In this document: positions 31,575-39,212 of the stretch, one piece after another
How positions within the stretch are numbered: position 1 is the stretch's first letter
Layout of the letters: each line of letters starts with the position of its first letter
DNA from: a virus
Virus record (IMG/VR): IMGVR_UViG_3300017708_000989
Coordinates: 1 to 45,258 of that record
Direction: 5' to 3' (one strand)
Length of the DNA stretch: 45,258 nucleotides
The notes under the pieces: generated by a model
Databases searched by the model: none
Told to the model about the DNA's origin: nothing
What the model saw: only the letters and a program-made list of their open reading frames with translations
Made by a program: the position numbers and the translations under genes

Positions 31575-31592
31575 AAAAAAGGGGTTTGTAAA
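31564..31592 (-). promoter_or_regulatory. Early-type promoter with a perfect inverted repeat over the -35 box
   Basis: TTTACA (31592-31587), 17-base spacer ending CGG, TATAAT (31569-31564). The -35 region forms GGGGTTT-AC-AAACCCC (31581-31596), a perfect 7-2-7 inverted repeat that could bind a dimeric repressor. Confidence 0.8.
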
Positions 31593-31625
31593 CCCCTAAT
31601 TTGAAAAGTTCACGTAATTGTGACG

Positions 31626-32027
31626 TTACCAAGCATCTAGATTAGATATTATGTATGCATTGTTAATAACTGCAGTAACCAACAGAGCATTGGTGATTGT
31701 CATCTGTTGGGAATTTATGTTATCTACTGTAAGTGGACCAAGAACACCTTTATGTAATGTCAATTTTATAAGAGAAGGATCAGGTCCAATAAGGGGATTT
31801 CTTTCCCTAATTTGTGGGTGTTTTATACCATGGTGGGTAACAAGTACATCCAGGATATTTAGAGCCCAAAAGATTTTAATCTGTTCGTCCGTCGGTGCCT
31901 GGTATTGGGGTATATATGGTAACTTTTTCCTTTTTTCCCTTAACTTGTATTCTATCGATTTCACGGACTGCTGTTGATAAACCTGCTTGATAAGTGTAGG
32001 ATGATAACAACAAGTCCACCCCATCAT
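31626..32027 (-). CDS. Small membrane protein overlapping the cyclase gene
   Basis: The frame ends at 31626; about 84 residues lie beyond the cyclase stop. They contain FWALNILDVLVTHHGIKHPQ, RNPLIGPDPSLIKLTLHKG and a C-terminal TNALLVTAVINNAYIISN, suggesting two or three membrane helices with an 'ELNPL'-like loop as in DUF5658-type proteins. The start is uncertain: tandem ATGs at 32027/32024 would overlap the cyclase coding sequence by about 150 bases in another frame (133 residues), while a GTG at about 31962 would shorten it. It is the last gene of the late operon and may partner the cyclase. Confidence 0.5.
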   Translation of the reverse strand: MMGWTCCYHPTLIKQVYQQQSVKSIEYKLREKRKKLPYIPQYQAPTDEQIKIFWALNILDVLVTHHGIKHPQIRERNPLIGPDPSLIKLTLHKGVLGPLTVDNINSQQMTITNALLVTAVINNAYIISNLDAW

Positions 32028-33732
32028 AATTTCTTGTTTGTCCCTCGAGTCTAGCACCGAGATTGACTGCGTCTCCAATAACGGAGTAATCAAATCGTGA
32101 TTCTGATCCCATATTGCCAACGATGCAGTCACCTGTATTGATACCAATCCCAACGCCAATAGTAGGTAAACCTTTTTCTTCCAATTCCTTTTGTAATTCT
32201 TTTCCCGCATCAAGTATCTCCATTGCAGTTATAACCGCCTTATTTGCATGATCTGGACAATCGAGGGGAGCATTCCAGAAAGCCATTATACAATCCCCCA
32301 TATACTTATCTATAGTTCCTCCATGCTTCAATATAATTTTGGTCATGGTATCTAAGTAATAATTAATTAAATCAACTAATCCTTCTGGATCGTCATTCTC
32401 TTTATATGCTTCTGATATAGGTGTAAATCCTATTATATCCATAAACATAAATGTCATTTCTTTTCTTTCTCCCCCTAATACCATTAGTTCTGGATTCTTA
32501 ACTAATTGATTAACTAGATCAGGAGAAAGATATGTGCTGAATTGTCCTTTTATTTGTTGTCTTAGTTTGAATTGTATATAAAAATTATTGAACGCGCTTG
32601 AAGCGAAAGAAAGTATATATACTATTATAGAATAGGATAGATCAAGGAGTATCCCACTTGAGGTCCAGAAGTACCAGACTAAAGCACAGTAGGCAGAGAC
32701 AACGCCGAAGAAGGCTACAGCACCAATCCACACAGAAAGGTAGTATATCGATGCCACAATCATCAATGACCCAATTACCATTAAACCTAACTCTAGAAGA
32801 TCAGCCCATTGAGGACGAGATATGCTTGTCCCATCCATTATTGTTTGAAGAGCAGAAGCCTGAAGTTGATGAGCAGAAAACAAACCCTGAGGTGTGGGTA
32901 TTTGAGAAGCAAGGCCACTTGCTGTTAGACCGACCAGGACTGTTTGACCTTCCAGATTAGGTAATACATCTTTTCCATATTCATATTCAGTATGGGTATA
33001 ATTAGTATTTAACCATATAGAACTATTATAATCTGTTTTAATAGGATCGTATGGTGGAATCATTACATCTTTTATACCATCATAGTCGGCTTTTAAGCTA
33101 TATGACTTTTTATCTTGTAATACTCTTATGATTTCTAAAGGCATTGCTGGATATAACTGTCCGTTTATTTGGGACAATAAAGGAATCCGTCTTGTTATAT
33201 TATCTACTTCTTTACCTGCATTTATTAATCCTACACCCCATGCAGCATCTTCTAATTCTTTTATATTCGTAACTAATCCTTTATATTTAGGAACAAAGTC
33301 ATACGCGTCACCCTCACCGAGCGTGGCCGTACCCACGTACGGGGCTGTGTCCGAGCGCCCTCGCGAAGAAGCATCCTGTGCTAATATAATACCATTATTG
33401 TTTACCCAAGAGATAAATACTTCGTCACCACCAAACCTATCTGCTTCTGGAAACATAATAGTAAATGCTATCATGCCAGCATTTGCGTTTCTTAAGTCTG
33501 ATATTAATTGTGCGTAGGTATGTCTTGGAAAGGGATATTGCCCATAGACAGATAATGTTTCTTCTCCGAGTGATAGTAGAACAACATCGGATTCCTTGTC
33601 GGGTAAGCTCTTAATATATTGATCGAATGTGTTTAATCTTATTTGTTCTACTAAAACTGGGTCTAAAATTCTTACGCCCAAAAGTGCAATACAAAGTGCA
33701 ATACTTGTCCAAATCGTTGTTATATATTTCAT
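31876..33732 (-). CDS. CHASE2-domain class III adenylate/guanylate cyclase
   Basis: 618 residues. An N-terminal membrane helix (about 7-25) is followed by a periplasmic CHASE2 sensor domain (to about 300; LNTFDQYIKSLPDKESDVVL, YPFPRHTYAQLISDLRNANA), three membrane helices (about 310-405) and a cytoplasmic class III cyclase domain (424-605). Catalytic residues are present: metal Asp432 (FMFMDIIGFT) and Asp480 (DKYMGDC), Lys476, and transition-state Asn557 and Arg561 (VIGDAVNLGARLEG). The second purine-selecting position is Ser550, where bacterial adenylate cyclases usually have Thr or Asp, so ATP is more likely than GTP but not certain. It would make cAMP in response to a periplasmic signal. 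It follows the second curlin gene by 22 bases. A GC-rich patch lies at 33301-33372. Confidence 0.93.
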   Translation of the reverse strand: MKYITTIWTSIALCIALLGVRILDPVLVEQIRLNTFDQYIKSLPDKESDVVLLSLGEETLSVYGQYPFPRHTYAQLISDLRNANAGMIAFTIMFPEADRFGGDEVFISWVNNNGIILAQDASSRGRSDTAPYVGTATLGEGDAYDFVPKYKGLVTNIKELEDAAWGVGLINAGKEVDNITRRIPLLSQINGQLYPAMPLEIIRVLQDKKSYSLKADYDGIKDVMIPPYDPIKTDYNSSIWLNTNYTHTEYEYGKDVLPNLEGQTVLVGLTASGLASQIPTPQGLFSAHQLQASALQTIMDGTSISRPQWADLLELGLMVIGSLMIVASIYYLSVWIGAVAFFGVVSAYCALVWYFWTSSGILLDLSYSIIVYILSFASSAFNNFYIQFKLRQQIKGQFSTYLSPDLVNQLVKNPELMVLGGERKEMTFMFMDIIGFTPISEAYKENDDPEGLVDLINYYLDTMTKIILKHGGTIDKYMGDCIMAFWNAPLDCPDHANKAVITAMEILDAGKELQKELEEKGLPTIGVGIGINTGDCIVGNMGSESRFDYSVIGDAVNLGARLEGQTRNYDGVDLLLSSYTYQAGLSTAVREIDRIQVKGKKEKVTIYTPIPGTDGRTD

Positions 33733-33754
33733 AAAAGTGTTATACTATGCAATA

Positions 33755-34567
33755 CTAATTCTGTGTTACTGATATACTACAACCACCAACTGTCACGCAA
33801 TTTTGGGATAACGTATATGATTGAGTTGTACTACCTGATTGTGTTAAAGATAAATCTGTTGGTTGTGATCCTAATAAATTTACTGTTGCTGTATGAGCCC
33901 CGTCATTTTTCTGTACAACGTTAACTTCATTACCATGCGAATTTCTAATTGTAAGAGTAAATGATTTGTTTCCATTTTGCATTTGTTTAACATATACATC
34001 ATTATTATCAGTGTATATATTTGCTAGAATAGAATGGGATATAGTATTTGAATCCATCTTTTGGCTTCCCTTAAATTCGTTATTGTCCCCGTGAATATCT
34101 AATCTGACAAAATTTCCACCTGGCTCTGTCCCGTCATAATTCCAGTTTGGTGTAGTACTATTGTTGTTTTCATATCCTTGTCCGAAGACGACTTTATTAT
34201 CATCACCCCAAACGTGGAATTGGAAATCATTAGCATTACAACTAGAAGTAGAACATTTTTGTCTTACATCTATCTCATTACGTAATCCATCTAAATCCCC
34301 ACCCCAGCTATAACCAGAACCCCATGCGTCAGTATATCCAAAATACATATTGTTTCCTGATTGTAAAAGATTTACAGTATTATTATTATGGTCAAAGGAG
34401 AATCTTGCATGGGTTTCATACCCGATTTGTTCTATACTCAGGTTAAAGTTATCACTAGAACTAACTTGGTCTATTTCTACGTGATTGTGCTCATCACCCG
34501 CCTTGACGTATGATGATAACGATAGACTGACCATCGCCAACAGTAATAAGGTTTTCTTTACCTTCAT
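33755..34567 (-). CDS. Secreted curlin-like protein 2
   Basis: 270 residues with a signal peptide (MKVKKTLLLLAMVSLSLSS, cleavage near YVKA). The mature part is Asn/Gln/Ser/Gly-rich with repeated 'N-x-V-x-(x)-Q-x-x-x-N' units (NNTVNLLQSGNNMYFG, NEVNVVQKNDGAHTATVNLL, LSLTQSGSTTQSYTLSQ), the pattern of CsgA/CsgB curlin repeats. Four cysteines occur in two pairs (CSTSSC; CVTVGGC), unusual for curlin. It is predicted to pass through the neighbouring CsgG pore and form amyloid outside the cell. It overlaps the FecR gene by 74 bases in another frame. Confidence 0.75.
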   Translation of the reverse strand: MKVKKTLLLLAMVSLSLSSYVKAGDEHNHVEIDQVSSSDNFNLSIEQIGYETHARFSFDHNNNTVNLLQSGNNMYFGYTDAWGSGYSWGGDLDGLRNEIDVRQKCSTSSCNANDFQFHVWGDDNKVVFGQGYENNNSTTPNWNYDGTEPGGNFVRLDIHGDNNEFKGSQKMDSNTISHSILANIYTDNNDVYVKQMQNGNKSFTLTIRNSHGNEVNVVQKNDGAHTATVNLLGSQPTDLSLTQSGSTTQSYTLSQNCVTVGGCSISVTQN

Positions 34568-35639
34568 TCTCGCTCCTTAATGTTGTATTACTATCTATAG
34601 GAATTTTAACTGATATAATTCCATTTACTTCTCTATAGAACCATATTTGACCCATACCTTGATCTATAATAGTATTATATTGTGTATCTTTATCAAATCC
34701 TACGGTTGTACCTTGAATATCAGCTGTACCTGATCCTGCAGATTGAGCTGATTGAGTACTACGTTTTAATATATTAACTTCTTCAATTGTAACTAATACA
34801 TCCTGTAGAAAATCTACGTCGAGTAAATCCATATCTAGTTCGGTATACTCGAGGTCTTCTTCTTCCCAGTCTTCTTTTAATAAGTCCTGGTCAAGTTCTG
34901 TAAAATCTAGAAGAGAAGTTGAACTATCTGAACTAGAACTTTCTTCTTCTACCGCCTCTGTAATTTTTGGAGGTGGTGCTACGATAAACATATTGTCTAT
35001 CATATTTAAATTTATATTATCTAAAACTACGGGTTGTGTAGGTATTCTATCAAAGCTTGATACCATTGTTGCTTGGTATGCTTCGGTCAGTGATACCGTA
35101 CCGCCTTCATTTGTTACTGTGATTGCACCAGAAGGAGAACAATCTCCATCTATTGTACATTCTGTTTCCGGAAGAAGTATAACTAAACTTCTACCTAACT
35201 CATCCACAGTAGTAGTAAAATCTGTTCCCCTAACTGCAATAGTAGCTGTAGGGGTTGTTATTACTATATTCTCTTTTGGTACTAATCCTAATCCACCTGT
35301 AGCAAATCTTGCTGTACCAGATACAAACTTCATACCCAAAGAATTATTTTGAGTATTGTTTGGATCAAAATAATATTTAGTTAGTACAACCTCTGTATGT
35401 TCTACTAATCTTAATACTGTATCATCTAAGAAAGTTAATTTAATACGACCTTTGGCCGTTTCAATAGCATCCATTTGCTGGACACCTAATCCAAGTTCAG
35501 TGGTAAAACTCTCACCTTCGCGAGTGATTCCACCACTGCCCTTGTGTTCTGTTATATCGCCAATATTATCAGCAAAAGCGAAAGAACTAAAGACTAGACT
35601 AGTCGCCAGTATCTTTTTGCTTAATATCAATAATTGCAT
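34494..35639 (-). CDS. Exported FecR-domain protein
   Basis: About 381 residues from ATG 35639, which gives a typical signal peptide (MQLLILSKKILATSLVFSSF then AFA); an in-frame ATG at 35660 is possible. The FecR domain follows: GVQQMDAIETAKGRIKLTFL, DDTVLRL, and IVITTPTATIAVRGTDFTTT, the last being the family signature. The middle is strongly acidic (DWEEEDLEYTELDMDLLDVD) and the C-terminus is beta-rich. There is no membrane helix, so this is not an anti-sigma factor of the FecR type but a periplasmic or surface protein. FecR-domain proteins are often found next to CHASE2 cyclases in bacteria, which suggests that it may deliver a signal to the cyclase. Confidence 0.85.
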   Translation of the reverse strand: MQLLILSKKILATSLVFSSFAFADNIGDITEHKGSGGITREGESFTTELGLGVQQMDAIETAKGRIKLTFLDDTVLRLVEHTEVVLTKYYFDPNNTQNNSLGMKFVSGTARFATGGLGLVPKENIVITTPTATIAVRGTDFTTTVDELGRSLVILLPETECTIDGDCSPSGAITVTNEGGTVSLTEAYQATMVSSFDRIPTQPVVLDNINLNMIDNMFIVAPPPKITEAVEEESSSSDSSTSLLDFTELDQDLLKEDWEEEDLEYTELDMDLLDVDFLQDVLVTIEEVNILKRSTQSAQSAGSGTADIQGTTVGFDKDTQYNTIIDQGMGQIWFYREVNGIISVKIPIDSNTTLRSENEGKENLITVGDGQSIVIIIRQGG

Positions 35640-36327
35640 TTTCTGAATCAAAGTCTGCACTTATAACTCCGTAACATCCAGTCACGCCTGTTGGGCATGT
35701 ACCTGAAGATTGTAATATATCAACGTCACCATTAGAACCTATATATTCCATAGTGATTGAATTATATGCACCATCGGATTGAGTTGTTAAGAAGTTATTT
35801 GAACTTCCTATAACATCAACGTTCCAAGTTGCATCATCATTTTCAATATCAATATTCCAAACGTTTGAACTACCAGTAATATCTAAATCAAAATCCAATC
35901 TTTCAGCTGAGGCTGCATAACCCCAATCTATATCGAATGTATTTGAACTACCAGTAATGTCTACATCTAATACTGAACTATCAGCACTTCCACCATAACC
36001 TACGTTCCAATCCCAGATATTACTATTACCTGTAAATTTTAAATCTACATCAGTACTATCAAATAAGGTTGGTCCGAAGACTTGGTTTAGGTTACCGATC
36101 ATATCAATATCCATCGTTACGGTATTACCGGTTAGTGTCCAATCACTAGCACAAGCACCAGATGAGATAGTTCCACAAATTTTATTACCATAACCTATTT
36201 GGTCAATGTATAATTTAAGTGTGTCACCAGCCTGGTCAAGCTTGACTTCGTTATCGTTTGTTCCGGCAAATAAAACCACAGGGCATAATATAAACAAAAA
36301 TGCGATATATCTTTTTAACATTTTCAT
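35599..36327 (-). CDS. Secreted curlin-like protein 1
   Basis: 242 residues with a signal peptide (MLKRYIAFLFILCPVVLFA). The mature protein contains at least four related units of about 20-25 residues built around 'DITGSSNxFDID' (LKFTGNSNIWDWNVGYG, VDITGSSNTFDIDWGYA, LDITGSSNVWNIDIEN, VDVIGSSNNFLTTQ). It starts with a curlin-type NEVKLDQAGDTLKLYIDQIG. It is strongly acidic and Asp/Asn/Ser-rich. A secreted beta-solenoid or amyloid subunit is predicted, exported by CsgG. The start overlaps the CsgG stop (ATGA); the alternative ATG at 36321 has GAGG upstream. The end overlaps the FecR gene. Confidence 0.75.
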   Translation of the reverse strand: MKMLKRYIAFLFILCPVVLFAGTNDNEVKLDQAGDTLKLYIDQIGYGNKICGTISSGACASDWTLTGNTVTMDIDMIGNLNQVFGPTLFDSTDVDLKFTGNSNIWDWNVGYGGSADSSVLDVDITGSSNTFDIDWGYAASAERLDFDLDITGSSNVWNIDIENDDATWNVDVIGSSNNFLTTQSDGAYNSITMEYIGSNGDVDILQSSGTCPTGVTGCYGVISADFDSENAIIDIKQKDTGD

Positions 36328-37289
36328 CCTCTTATTTCCTCTATATTATCAGGAGTAGGAACTTCTTCAGGAATTTCAGATGGTTCAGTATAGATAATTT
36401 CAGCATCGTCGATAATTTCCCCAACTTTACCTTCTATCATTTTATTTACTGGCCAATTGATTTCCCAGAATCCTCGTTCATCGCCCTGATATATTAATTC
36501 CAACACAGCTGCTTCAATAGTTGAGCGAAGCGACCGTGTCACTGATTCGTTCTCTGTCATCCCATCTTCAATCTCTATTAGTTGGGTGTCCATATCAACG
36601 AATTTAAATACATCGTAACCATCCGCGATCGATAGGATAGTTTTTGATGCTTGGACATTAAGCAGAATCTCTCCTGTTAATGTACTCACTGCTCGGAGGG
36701 AAACAGTAACTATATCTCTTCGGTATTGTTGTGAGTAACCAATGCCAAGAGTTCTAGCTCCCACTCCTCCTGTCTCAATATTGGTATCGAAACCTATGAT
36801 ACCTCCTTCAAGAATTATTCCAGCGAACAATAATGGGGCTAGACCTGTTTTATCTTCTCCATCAGTGTTATACTGTTCTCTAGTAGTACGAACAATTTGT
36901 CGTTCACGAGTAAGGTGATCTAATCCTACTCTTTCTACCACTCTAAACCATGTACCTTCACCGGCACTTTTCAATGCATCAATTAGCATTGTTTCACCAC
37001 CTTGAGAAACGGCAGTACTAAACATTGCTGCATTTCCTTTTTGTTTTCTTTGTCCAGTTTTATCTGTATATTGATATACAGCTACAACGACTGGATTTTC
37101 TGGTGATGGTAAATTTCTTAGCTCTTCATATGTAGGCATTCGGACCACTTCTGGGTCTTCTACACATGCTAGATTTAAATTGGGATTACAATTCTTTGCA
37201 TCTAATCCATTAACTGGTACAATAGAAGCACAGCTACTAACAAGCAGCGCGAGTAATGATAATAAGAATAAGTTTCTAACCTGTTCCAT
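36324..37289 (-). CDS. csgG: Curli secretion channel CsgG
   Basis: About 321 residues from ATG 37289, giving a lipoprotein signal peptide with lipobox LVSSC. Matches to E. coli CsgG run along the whole length: PSPENPVVVAVYQYTDKTGQ, NAAMFSTAVSQGGETMLIDA, WFRVVERVGLDHLTRERQIV, GIILEGGIIGFDTNIETGGV, GARTLGIGYSQQYRRDIVTV, LRAVSTLTGEILLNVQASKT, and the helical DERGFWEIN region. CsgG is a nonameric outer-membrane pore that secretes curlin. The constriction-loop Phe is kept (MFSTAV), while the Tyr and Asn partners of the E. coli constriction appear changed. The C-terminal extension is acidic. It overlaps csgF upstream and curlin downstream. Confidence 0.95.
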   Translation of the reverse strand: MEQVRNLFLLSLLALLVSSCASIVPVNGLDAKNCNPNLNLACVEDPEVVRMPTYEELRNLPSPENPVVVAVYQYTDKTGQRKQKGNAAMFSTAVSQGGETMLIDALKSAGEGTWFRVVERVGLDHLTRERQIVRTTREQYNTDGEDKTGLAPLLFAGIILEGGIIGFDTNIETGGVGARTLGIGYSQQYRRDIVTVSLRAVSTLTGEILLNVQASKTILSIADGYDVFKFVDMDTQLIEIEDGMTENESVTRSLRSTIEAAVLELIYQGDERGFWEINWPVNKMIEGKVGEIIDDAEIIYTEPSEIPEEVPTPDNIEEIRG

Positions 37290-37845
37290 TTCCAGCTGTT
37301 CCTGCACCAATTGGTATTACTATTTGAGTTTCTGATCCATCTTCTGCAATGATTGTCATAACAATAACCTGATCACCTTGGGTACATGCCCAGAGTGATT
37401 CATCACAGATTGTTTTTTGATAGGTAATCGTATTACCTTCTAATACAAAACTACCGAATGTTGTTTCTGTACATGTTCCAGCAGCTACTGCCTCGACTGT
37501 ACAGGTTTCAAATAGTTTTTCTACTAGCTGTTTAGATAATTGTGCGTATATTCTACTTTCTAAGTTACGCATAAACTTAGCAAGAGTTGTATTCTCTGCG
37601 TCTCTTTCAGCTTGTTTTAAAGCTGCTTCTAAATCTTTTGCAATAGCATCTCTTCTGGATTTCTCTTGGTTCTCAACAGTTAAATAGTGAGCTGAGGTAC
37701 CAATACCAGAGAATGATGGGTTTTTAAATTCATGTACTAATTCATCAGCATTTATATTTGGTGATAAACTGATTATGGATAATAAAAAGATAGTTATTAA
37801 TGCTCCAATCTCTATCTTATCTTTTATTTTATCGATTCTCTTCAT
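37276..37845 (-). CDS. csgF: Curli assembly factor CsgF
   Basis: 189 residues. A basic N-terminus and hydrophobic segment (ALITIFLLSIISLSPNINA) form a signal peptide, then DELVHEFKNPSFSGIGTSAH, the CsgF signature (E. coli FQFRNPNFGG) that inserts into the CsgG channel. A helix of about 60 residues follows (LEAALKQAERDAENTTLAKF), then a beta C-terminus (FGSFVLEGNTITYQKT, VIVMTIIAEDGSETQIVIPI) as in CsgF. Four cysteines in the insertion (CTVEAVAAGTC; CDESLWAC) are not found in E. coli CsgF. It precedes and overlaps csgG, matching the bacterial csgFG order. Confidence 0.85.
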   Translation of the reverse strand: MKRIDKIKDKIEIGALITIFLLSIISLSPNINADELVHEFKNPSFSGIGTSAHYLTVENQEKSRRDAIAKDLEAALKQAERDAENTTLAKFMRNLESRIYAQLSKQLVEKLFETCTVEAVAAGTCTETTFGSFVLEGNTITYQKTICDESLWACTQGDQVIVMTIIAEDGSETQIVIPIGAGTAGNGTG

Positions 37846-38152
37846 TCCGTTTCTCCTCGAGAGCTTCTTTTTCTTCTATATCTTCTAGAAATTTCTGCCT
37901 CTCCCTGTACTCTAATACAACATTTACTTTTTGTTGTAATCTTATCATATCCTGATCAAGCATCCTTACCTGATCAATTAACCTGATTAGTTGCATGTGC
38001 ATCTTTTCAATCTCAGGCTCTAATTCATTGGAAATAAATTGCCAAACATAATATATAAAATACCCCATTCCAACCGCAAGAACGATTGGAAATCCATAAT
38101 CATTTATTAACTGCACTATTGTAGGGTCATTACTTATTGCAATCTCGTCCAT
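37829..38152 (-). CDS. Small membrane/coiled-coil protein B
   Basis: 107 residues. One membrane helix near the N-terminus (YGFPIVLAVGMGYFIYYVWQF), followed by a long charged coiled coil (EIEKMHMQLIRLIDQVRMLD to the end). AAGGAG precedes the ATG. It pairs with the similar gene upstream. Similar one-helix proteins in phages are often called YvrJ- or BhlA-like holins; here it could equally anchor the curli apparatus. Function unproven. Confidence 0.65.
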   Translation of the reverse strand: MDEIAISNDPTIVQLINDYGFPIVLAVGMGYFIYYVWQFISNELEPEIEKMHMQLIRLIDQVRMLDQDMIRLQQKVNVVLEYRERQKFLEDIEEKEALEEKRNEENR

Positions 38153-38445
38153 TAATCTCTCCTTGCGTCTATTTTACCATCTTCAACGAAGTTACTAGCT
38201 CTAGCAACCCGTTCGATAGGTGGAGTAAGCTCTAATGCACTACTTACTAATAAATCTATCTTAATCATTTCGTTATTCATAGTACTCACCCTTGTTTCTA
38301 AACTTTTGCAAAACATTGTAAGAGTAGATATTGAATCAACCAAACCACCTAATATCTGTTTTAATATTAGGAATATAAAATAACCCATTAATAATGCACC
38401 TGCGACGGGCGCACCTACTTCCATAATCAGTTCAAATATTTCCAT
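38152..38445 (-). CDS. Small membrane/coiled-coil protein A, first gene of the curli operon
   Basis: 97 residues from ATG 38445, chosen because it lies at the predicted +1 of the late promoter; the longer frame to 38493 runs through the promoter. One membrane helix (VGAPVAGALLMGYFIFLILK) precedes an amphipathic coiled coil (LETRVSTMNNEMIKIDLLVS). The short tail is charged (DGKIDARRD). It shares the design of its downstream neighbour. A holin or membrane-organising role is possible. Confidence 0.7.
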   Translation of the reverse strand: MEIFELIMEVGAPVAGALLMGYFIFLILKQILGGLVDSISTLTMFCKSLETRVSTMNNEMIKIDLLVSSALELTPPIERVARASNFVEDGKIDARRD

Positions 38446-38458
38446 ATATCTATTTATA
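38446..38458 (-). promoter_or_regulatory. Late promoter of the curli-cyclase operon, +1 on the start codon
   Basis: TATAAATA (38458-38451), GATAT (38450-38446), ATG (38445): the same 16 bases as at gp25. All genes from here to 31626 overlap or are separated by at most 22 bases, and no other strong promoter is evident, so a single late transcript is likely. Confidence 0.75.
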
Positions 38459-38470
38459 TAACTTGAGGTG

Positions 38471-38788
38471 CTAGAATGAGATACTAACGCCACAACCGCA
38501 GGAAGCGGTTTCTTTAGGATTGATTATCTTAAATGATTTGTTTAGACCTTCGTGGACAAAATCGATGATTGCCTCGTCTAAAAGAGGAAGAGAATCCTCA
38601 TCTATTACTATTTGAAATTTTCCGTAATCTAGGATATGATCCGAGCTATGAACTGTATCAGCGAAATCGAAAATATACTTAAAACCAGTACACCCACCAC
38701 CAGTAACGCCAACTCGTATAGTATCGTTAGCATTATCCTGCGTTTGGCTAATCGCCTGATTGATCGCAGCATCAGTTAGGTCTAACAT
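38471..38788 (-). CDS. iscA: IscA/HesB-type Fe-S carrier protein
   Basis: 105 residues (E. coli IscA 107). It has the A-type carrier cysteines at 33, 97 and 99 (RVGVTGGGCTGFKY; SCGCGVSISF), with the family spacing of 64 between the first two. It would receive or transfer Fe-S clusters to target proteins. It could equally be an ErpA-type carrier. It overlaps iscU by 17 bases. Confidence 0.92.
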   Translation of the reverse strand: MLDLTDAAINQAISQTQDNANDTIRVGVTGGGCTGFKYIFDFADTVHSSDHILDYGKFQIVIDEDSLPLLDEAIIDFVHEGLNKSFKIINPKETASCGCGVSISF

Positions 38789-39212
38789 CTGGAGGGTTAT
38801 TATGTTTACGATGTGCTTGTTTCTTTTCCCAATCTTTTATAGCAGTTTGAATTGTTTCTTCTGCTAAGACAGAACAATGGAGTTTAATTGGAGGTAATTC
38901 AAGAGCTTCTGCAATTTCTTTATCTTTAATTTGTTTTGCTTGTTCAAGTGTTTTACCTTTAAGCATTTCAACAAACATTGTTGATGAAGCAATTGCACTT
39001 CCGCATCCATAGGTTTTAAATTTGACATCGAGTATTTCATCCGTGTCTGGGTTTAATTTTAGATCCAACTTCATAACATCGCCACAAGCTGGAGCACCTG
39101 CTAAACCTGTTACTACATTTGGATCTTTAGGATCGAACCTACCAACACCATGTTTGGCAGGATTCTTTAGTACATCTTCGAATCGATCTACTACCTTACT
39201 TGAGTAAGCCAT
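38772..39212 (-). CDS. iscU: IscU Fe-S cluster scaffold
   Basis: 146 residues (E. coli IscU 128). The three cluster ligands are Cys43 (GAPACGDVM, with Asp45), Cys70 (KTYGCGSAIASS) and Cys113 (LHCSVLAEE); the chaperone-recognition motif LPPIK is at 106-110. All essential residues of a working scaffold are present. The cysteine desulphurase IscS and the chaperones are not in the window, so host partners would be used. It sits two bases after a small virion-like gene, downstream of lysozyme, so it is probably made late. The C-terminal tail (HRKHNNPPDVRPN) is longer than usual. Confidence 0.95.
   Translation of the reverse strand: MAYSSKVVDRFEDVLKNPAKHGVGRFDPKDPNVVTGLAGAPACGDVMKLDLKLNPDTDEILDVKFKTYGCGSAIASSTMFVEMLKGKTLEQAKQIKDKEIAEALELPPIKLHCSVLAEETIQTAIKDWEKKQAHRKHNNPPDVRPN

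Follow-up and report, generated by a model that had tools for sequence, protein, structure and literature searches.

What use might a T4-like phage have for a curli-type secretion pore, and how is that pore related to the nucleotide cyclase encoded behind it? The question is raised by a nine-gene cassette on the minus strand of IMG/VR virus record IMGVR_UViG_3300017708_000989 (45,258 bases; hereafter the window), in which T4-like phage genes for baseplate wedge, tail, end-protector and gp32-type proteins were recognised. From position 38445 to 31626 the cassette encodes two small membrane proteins (tmA and tmB), CsgF, CsgG, curlin-like protein 1, a FecR-domain protein, curlin-like protein 2, a CHASE2-adenylate cyclase and a ninth open reading frame (ORF). 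The gene identities and their conserved order are established by the matches given below. We propose that the cassette is a late-transcribed minimal type VIII secretion system with its own envelope sensor, in which curlin export is monitored by FecR and CHASE2; we hold this tentatively, as quite possible but somewhat short of probable.

Under this proposal CsgG and CsgF would form an outer-membrane pore, through which two exported beta-solenoid curlin-like proteins would leave the infected cell to assemble on it. FecR, with a PupR-like signalling fold and a curlin-type last strand, would touch curlin or pore in the periplasm and signal their state to CHASE2 in the adenylate cyclase of the inner membrane; the cyclase would then produce cyclic AMP (cAMP). 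The proposal is supported by profile matches, conserved gene order, curlin genes upstream of 113 of 127 cyclases, the late promoter and the catalytic residues, and also by bacterial FecR-CHASE2 loci, the available parts of PMC5192318 and PMC5498481, the PupR-like fold and the FecR tail. If the cassette works in this way, free-living infected cells would come to bear fibres on their surface and to produce a second messenger nearly absent from the probable host family.

A probable late operon with a conserved gene order

Neighbouring genes of the operon overlap or touch, as read from ORFs and DNA, with the sole exception of a 22-nt gap before the cyclase. A T4-type late promoter box, TATAAATA, lies at 38451..38458 on the minus strand and begins 13 nt ahead of the tmA ATG, and a terminator-like stem-loop with a T tail (31580..31597, minus strand) closes the operon; six terminator-like sites were seen in the region, with 3.4 expected. 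The sequence-only reading had described nine packed genes behind one late promoter, and ORFs, DNA and Pfam agree with that description. Among 95 loci whose 300-nt stretches at the first gene are distinct, the box is exact ahead of that gene in 64, has one mismatch in 13 and is lacking in 18; in 42 of the 64 exact loci it starts at a distance of precisely 13 nt from the ATG. The count at six internal genes was 0 in 586. We rejected a window-wide excess of the box, which occurs 10 times, as expected by chance (9.61); the conserved feature is its placement. Late expression of the cassette as one unit is strongly suggested. T4 late boxes sit at about -13 to -6, so that a transcript driven by a box at -13 would start at the start codon itself, and a leaderless late mRNA is possible. 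The box is also present near the frame start of curlin-like protein 2 in 20 of 88 distinct loci, where some phages may have a second late promoter.

We collected 80 IMG/VR loci around the cyclase (the best of 155) and 80 around CsgG (the best of 106), one locus being in both sets. Together with the phages HTVC008M and Melnitz and the window these make up 163 entries. Repeated contigs were kept, so that some contribute two loci, and locus L001 is part of the window. The full order tm-tm-csgF-csgG-curlin-fecR-curlin-cyclase is present in 86 of the 163, and 67 more show a part of it that breaks off at a contig end. Ten entries fall outside both classes, three of which end about 150-165 nt past the last gene; in L105 FecR is split over two frames, and in L099 other genes follow the second curlin. 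A curlin gene lies upstream in 113 of the 127 entries with a cyclase, is lacking in 5 and could not be read in 9 at a contig edge. The order was also looked for in related complete phages, and all eight genes were found in HTVC008M and Melnitz. We therefore reject a chimeric assembly, which is unlikely because the order recurs in these two isolates and in many contigs. The HTVC008M and Melnitz cyclases are 43.6% and 34.4% identical to that of the window; unlike the window, neither phage has the ninth ORF by profile or an exact late box within 70 nt upstream of the first gene. Mosig, which is in the phage collection, gave no CsgG or cyclase match. The cassette is an accessory one, and a cyclase can be present where curli genes are lacking.

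The cassette is already known. The same order was published for SAR11 podo- and myophages in PMC9599517 (2022), so the novelty that the sequence-only reading had left open for the gene combination does not hold. As described in the available part of that paper, the pelagiphage type VIII secretion module has CsgF, CsgG, curlin, FecR, a second curlin and adenylate cyclase in the order of the window, again with one or two small genes first, and HTVC008M is the cultured example. That part leaves CHASE2 unnamed, calls the small genes histidine kinases and describes neither a promoter nor C-terminal features; it does report 65 stations with viral curli proteins, as well as metatranscriptome signals. 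CsgF and CsgG were reported from pelagimyophages in PMC7029224, where the accessible text proposes 'sibling capture', and from Melnitz in PMC9004378, where it proposes a role in lysis. A term search of the available text of a 2025 pelagiphage transcriptome paper gave no mention of HTVC008M or curli. In the open-licence PMC literature, as far as its accessible text goes, we came across no mention of CHASE2 in this cyclase, of the tail on FecR or of the lack of a receptor, and titles and abstract openings revealed no other work on the phage cyclase. What we add is the placement of the late promoter, the CHASE2 identity, the FecR tail, the rarity of the receptor and the finding that the kinase label is unsupported.

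A pore, its candidate substrates and two small membrane proteins

CsgG and CsgF had been recognised from sequence motifs, and both identities hold above the Pfam cut-offs. The CsgG pore lipoprotein (36324..37289, minus strand; ATG at 37289, longest ORF from 37310) matches PF03783 at E 3.9e-48 and solved CsgG chains at 1.6e-48. CsgF (37276..37845, minus strand) matches PF10614 at E 5.7e-10 with 39.9 bits against a cut-off of 25.8; a comparison of CsgF with solved structures gave no match at E<=1.

The curlin-like proteins are more divergent. For these and the other families we chose representatives at 85% identity: 46 of 108 cyclases, 43 of 108 FecR proteins, 38 of 121 first curlins and 17 of 23 second curlins, the last set being small because start-finding missed most of them, including the window's own, whose tail was read from its ORF. 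Curlin-like protein 1 (35599..36327, minus strand), a predicted beta-solenoid with a signal-peptide-like N-terminus, scores 16.3 bits against Curlin_rpt, under the curated cut-off of 20.7, and the repeat is found in 22 of its 38 relatives at E<=0.1 (best 8.6e-6). Curlin-like protein 2 (33755..34567, minus strand) has no curlin match in Pfam; phage-derived profiles group the two proteins into one family. The model of the first is all-beta (mean predicted local distance difference test, pLDDT, 85.8), and CsgA (8c50_A) ranks third among its re-examined Foldseek candidates (Z 16.6, root-mean-square deviation (rmsd) 8.8, 192 residues), with a score tied with those of the unrelated SufB/SufD beta-helices. 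We infer that the curlin-like proteins may be exported to form fibres on the infected cell. Homologues of CsgG and CsgF and curlin-like proteins are common to the cassette and the E. coli curli (type VIII secretion) system; the phage adds FecR and the cyclase, whereas CsgE, CsgC and CsgD had no Pfam match among the cassette proteins scanned, the rest of the genome not having been searched.

Ahead of the pore genes stand tmA (38152..38445, minus strand; 97 aa; phrog_18771), with an N-terminal membrane helix and a coiled coil, and tmB (37829..38152, minus strand; 107 aa). The sequence-only reading of both as membrane/coiled-coil proteins was confirmed, with the correction that they are paralogues. 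Their position suggests that they are the one or two 'histidine kinases' that PMC9599517, in its available part, places ahead of CsgF. If they are, that label is not supported: in a scan of 54 of the 71 family representatives, no kinase domain was among the 25 Pfam families matched at E<=0.1, and neither HisKA nor HATPase domains were found.

The same small proteins bear on a different use of the pore. For Melnitz it was proposed, in the available text of PMC9004378, that CsgG-CsgF acts as a pinholin- or secretin-like device for timing lysis, and tmA and tmB could then be holin-like; a late promoter would suit this, and 12 of the 54 members weakly match holin family phrog_4898 at E<=0.01 (best 1.1e-4). 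However, the proposal rests on absent fibre genes, and in Melnitz too FecR is flanked by curlin-like genes. CsgG is still close to solved CsgG, and a lysis device would need neither exported curlins nor a cyclase. We consider lysis timing unlikely.

A FecR protein with a curlin-type tail

The FecR-domain protein (34494..35639, minus strand; longest ORF from 35660) matches PF04773 at E 3.7e-10 with 40.5 bits. Its model (pLDDT 74.3) matches the periplasmic signalling domain of PupR (Z 15.1, rmsd 2.5, 135 residues), and model residues 23-122 match 5ix9, a 'cell surface anchoring domain' (Z 10.7, rmsd 2.2, 73 of 76 residues) that we take to be the retention domain of a giant ice-binding adhesin. 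The N-terminus is short and signal-peptide-like, with no 19-residue window over 1.6. Phage FecR lacks an N-terminal cytoplasmic anti-sigma part with a partner sigma factor, and in a Pfam scan of ten proteins nothing matched a sigma or anti-sigma family.

The C-terminus carries a curlin-type tail. The motif [IVL]x[IVLF]xQ falls within the last 14 residues in all 43 phage FecR representatives; this is one inherited feature that was kept, not 43 events, because the family members share ancestry. It is also present in 38/38 first curlins and 15/17 second curlins, in 5 of 10 bacterial curlin-like frames beside CsgG, in 1 of 21 bacterial FecRs from cyclase loci, in 13 of 859 other viral frames and in none of 204 other cassette proteins. 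By a position-specific tail score, 4 of 885 control frames equalled or exceeded the median of the FecR tails, and 21 of 885 equalled or exceeded the lowest. Docking of FecR on curlin or pore through this tail is a lead suggested by the motif, not a proof.

The character of FecR also bears on the proposal, made in the accessible text of PMC7029224 and PMC9599517, that the pore mainly admits larger molecules such as cofactors or siderophores, with FecR as an iron-linked regulator. No gate of the CsgE type was matched among the cassette proteins, as an uptake pore would have it. Yet FecR begins like a signal peptide, no sigma factor was seen in the cassette, and in the loci that we read its relatives pair with CHASE2 proteins, not with iron transport. 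Uptake through the pore therefore seems to us quite unlikely.

A CHASE2-adenylate cyclase with all catalytic residues

The class III cyclase (31876..33732, minus strand) joins a CHASE2 domain (PF05226, E 1.4e-33, 117 bits) to a Guanylate_cyc domain (PF00211, E 4.4e-19, 69.2 bits), both above cut-off, and the catalytic domain aligns with solved adenylate cyclases. That its catalytic residues are complete, as claimed from the sequence, is borne out across the family: D432, K476, D480 and R561 are kept in 46/46 representative phage cyclases and D548 and N557 in 45/46. We take these six positions to serve metal binding, substrate selection and transition-state stabilization. The sequence-only reading had left the product as cAMP or cyclic GMP; under our assumed reading of the positions, K476 and D548, which would select the substrate, are of adenylate type, and the phage cyclase thus probably makes cAMP.

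We examined the best 80 of at least 541 bacterial relatives of the cyclase, which are mostly from Proteobacteria by title and many of whose loci are cut by contig ends. A FecR gene is present in 21 of the 80 loci, in 11 of them within 600 bp, and the phage CsgF, CsgG and curlin profiles matched in none of the 80. Five alphaproteobacterial CsgF loci that we read (a sixth match was below cut-off and left out) contain neither FecR nor a CHASE2 cyclase, in line with the statement in the available part of PMC9599517 that FecR and the cyclase are not in bacterial type VIII secretion operons. The available text of PMC5192318 describes a Burkholderia BiofilmReg operon, linked to biofilm, in which an exported FecR stands beside a CHASE2 sensor as in the phage; unlike the phage, its output is a histidine kinase, its FecR has LysM and there are no curli genes. 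A Sinorhizobium cyclase without CHASE2 is said, in the accessible part of PMC5498481, to produce cAMP constitutively. In our reading, FecR with CHASE2 is a pair of older origin that senses the envelope and has been coupled to curli in the phage cassette; contact between FecR and CHASE2 may take place in the phage.

Three bacterial loci (L187, L194 and L211, from low-G+C marine bacteria) likewise have a CHASE2 cyclase and a FecR domain near a surface-type protein exporter. They differ from the phage in using type I secretion (all three have an HlyD fusion, and in L211 the exporter genes were scanned) and in encoding proteins that bind cyclic nucleoside monophosphates (cNMP), which are lacking in 7 phage records. 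In each a cNMP-binding-HlyD fusion flanks the cyclase on one side and one or two small proteins that bind cNMP on the other, and an RTX-FecR protein lies about 6 kb from the cyclase; type I exporter genes were also identified in L211. These loci could possibly be cAMP-gated type I exporters. A fourth locus, L201, resembles them by gene sizes only.

The likely host and its cAMP receptors

The host of the window phage can be placed tentatively through the relatives of the phage. For the gp6-type baseplate protein, Mosig and HTVC008M, which infect SAR11, and Melnitz, which infects OM43, are the isolates listed nearest, all about 40% identical, and for the gp32-type protein Melnitz comes first at 53.9% identity, with a cyanophage close behind. 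A 16S probe matched 2 of 372 alphaproteobacterial genomes; both matched loci have small-subunit rRNA and are positive for all four of the probes tried, whose sequences we take to be those of SAR11 probes. The family of these two genomes is probably SAR11, and its 147 genomes, drawn from a larger group, were used below. Two other groups were not identified as SAR11 and were dropped as host evidence: the G276 family and order, which are the same 18 genomes (none with the cNMP-binding domain PF00027), and the G015 family (PF00027 in 32/32). Many genomes of the G015 family have a cNMP-binding domain in a frame some 570-590 aa long and smaller ones about 4 kb off, a spacing as in L211.

PF00027 was found in 9 of the 147 probable SAR11 family genomes and had no match in 138. 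A class III cyclase was found in 3 of the 147 (2 above cut-off) and a class I cyclase in none. The domain was not matched in any of the 7 phage records, of which the window and some others are fragments. These counts bear on the suggestion that, independently of curli, cAMP from the cyclase acts on a regulator of the cAMP receptor protein (CRP) type and so steers host transcription. The adenylate-type residues, the loci in which a cyclase lacks upstream curli genes and the domain in 9 family members speak for it; but with the receptor domain so rare, the CRP route is unlikely if the host, which we infer, belongs to this family, and we regard the suggestion as improbable. The sequence-only reading had likewise considered cAMP control of host metabolism, which by the usual route finds no support here. 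With a canonical receptor rare in the probable host family, the signal must act via another receptor or otherwise, and any effect of phage cAMP on the cell is presumptive. Interference with cyclic-nucleotide immunity (Pycsar-like), with the curli genes travelling along by chance, is highly improbable: PycC models match the catalytic domain (best 5.6e-25) and five loci have a cyclase with no curli upstream, but the match spans the generic class III catalytic domain, and neither the CHASE2 sensor nor the usual curli link fits.

How closely is export coupled to the cyclase?

The proposal of a secretion system with its own envelope sensor can be carried a step further, with FecR as the physical link: having gained a curlin-type last strand, it would pass the state of fibre or export to the CHASE2 cyclase, and hence to cAMP, a signal that most of the probable hosts neither make nor bind by themselves. 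If true, infected cells would acquire from the phage a second-messenger circuit new to them, with a non-canonical receptor. We regard this more specific version as doubtful.

Several observations weigh against the proposal or its extension. Five loci (L038, L039, L065, L080 and L081) have an apparently intact cyclase with no curli or FecR gene upstream; three of them (L039, L065 and L081) are among the 46 cyclase representatives. These lone cyclases imply that the sensor can work without FecR in some phages, which weighs against strict coupling, and they lowered our estimate of the FecR link. The curli-cyclase link of the sequence-only reading therefore stands in so far as one probable late operon joins the two, and does not stand as a strict rule. 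In the bacterial loci of related cyclases, 59 of 80 have no FecR. The tail evidence is itself limited: a FecR-curlin profile comparison was not significant (probability 6%), and shuffles scored at least equal in 54, 24 and 8 of 100 cases for the N-terminal part, the C-terminal part and the tail, respectively. Shuffled FecR tails reached their own score 651 times in 8600, so that support from the tail score is moderate. On the export side, the curlin repeats are degenerate in the cassette curlin-like proteins, CsgE is among the components unmatched in the cassette, and Foldseek gave no hit at E<=0.001 for the model of curlin-like protein 1, though absence from such lists excludes nothing. The sequence-only reading had put forward aggregation, exclusion of other phages and changed envelope permeability as possible roles; Melnitz cultures were reported, in the available part of PMC9004378, without clumping.

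The ninth reading frame and neighbouring genes

The ninth ORF (31626..31931, minus strand) is DUF5658-like, with a match to PF18902 at 5.1e-4 that is below cut-off, and its frame is open up to 32213. The sequence-only reading had counted it as a gene. The ORF is present, following the cyclase in 76 of the 110 entries that have at least 400 nt there, but it has no conserved start codon and was not found by profile in HTVC008M or Melnitz. It lies in the +1 frame relative to the cyclase end in 79/79 loci, and the open frame reaches 96 codons or more back from the cyclase stop; its translation may involve a frameshift or begin at an unusual start. Synonymous conservation showed no rise at the cyclase end, as looked for in a frameshift extension of the cyclase, and the tails of 46 cyclases contained no in-frame fusion. 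The ORF is kept in all five loci with a lone cyclase, four of which adjoin Fe-S-assembly-like genes by reading.

Directly upstream of the operon in the window (38471-39212) are two Fe-S cluster assembly genes, one IscA-like by reading and the other NifU-like (phrog_8429). Outside the loci described here, CsgG is also present in OR851715.1 (Salmonella phage S.Kent 1-2-1), a 1.5-kb unannotated 'phage' record that may be misfiled bacterial DNA.

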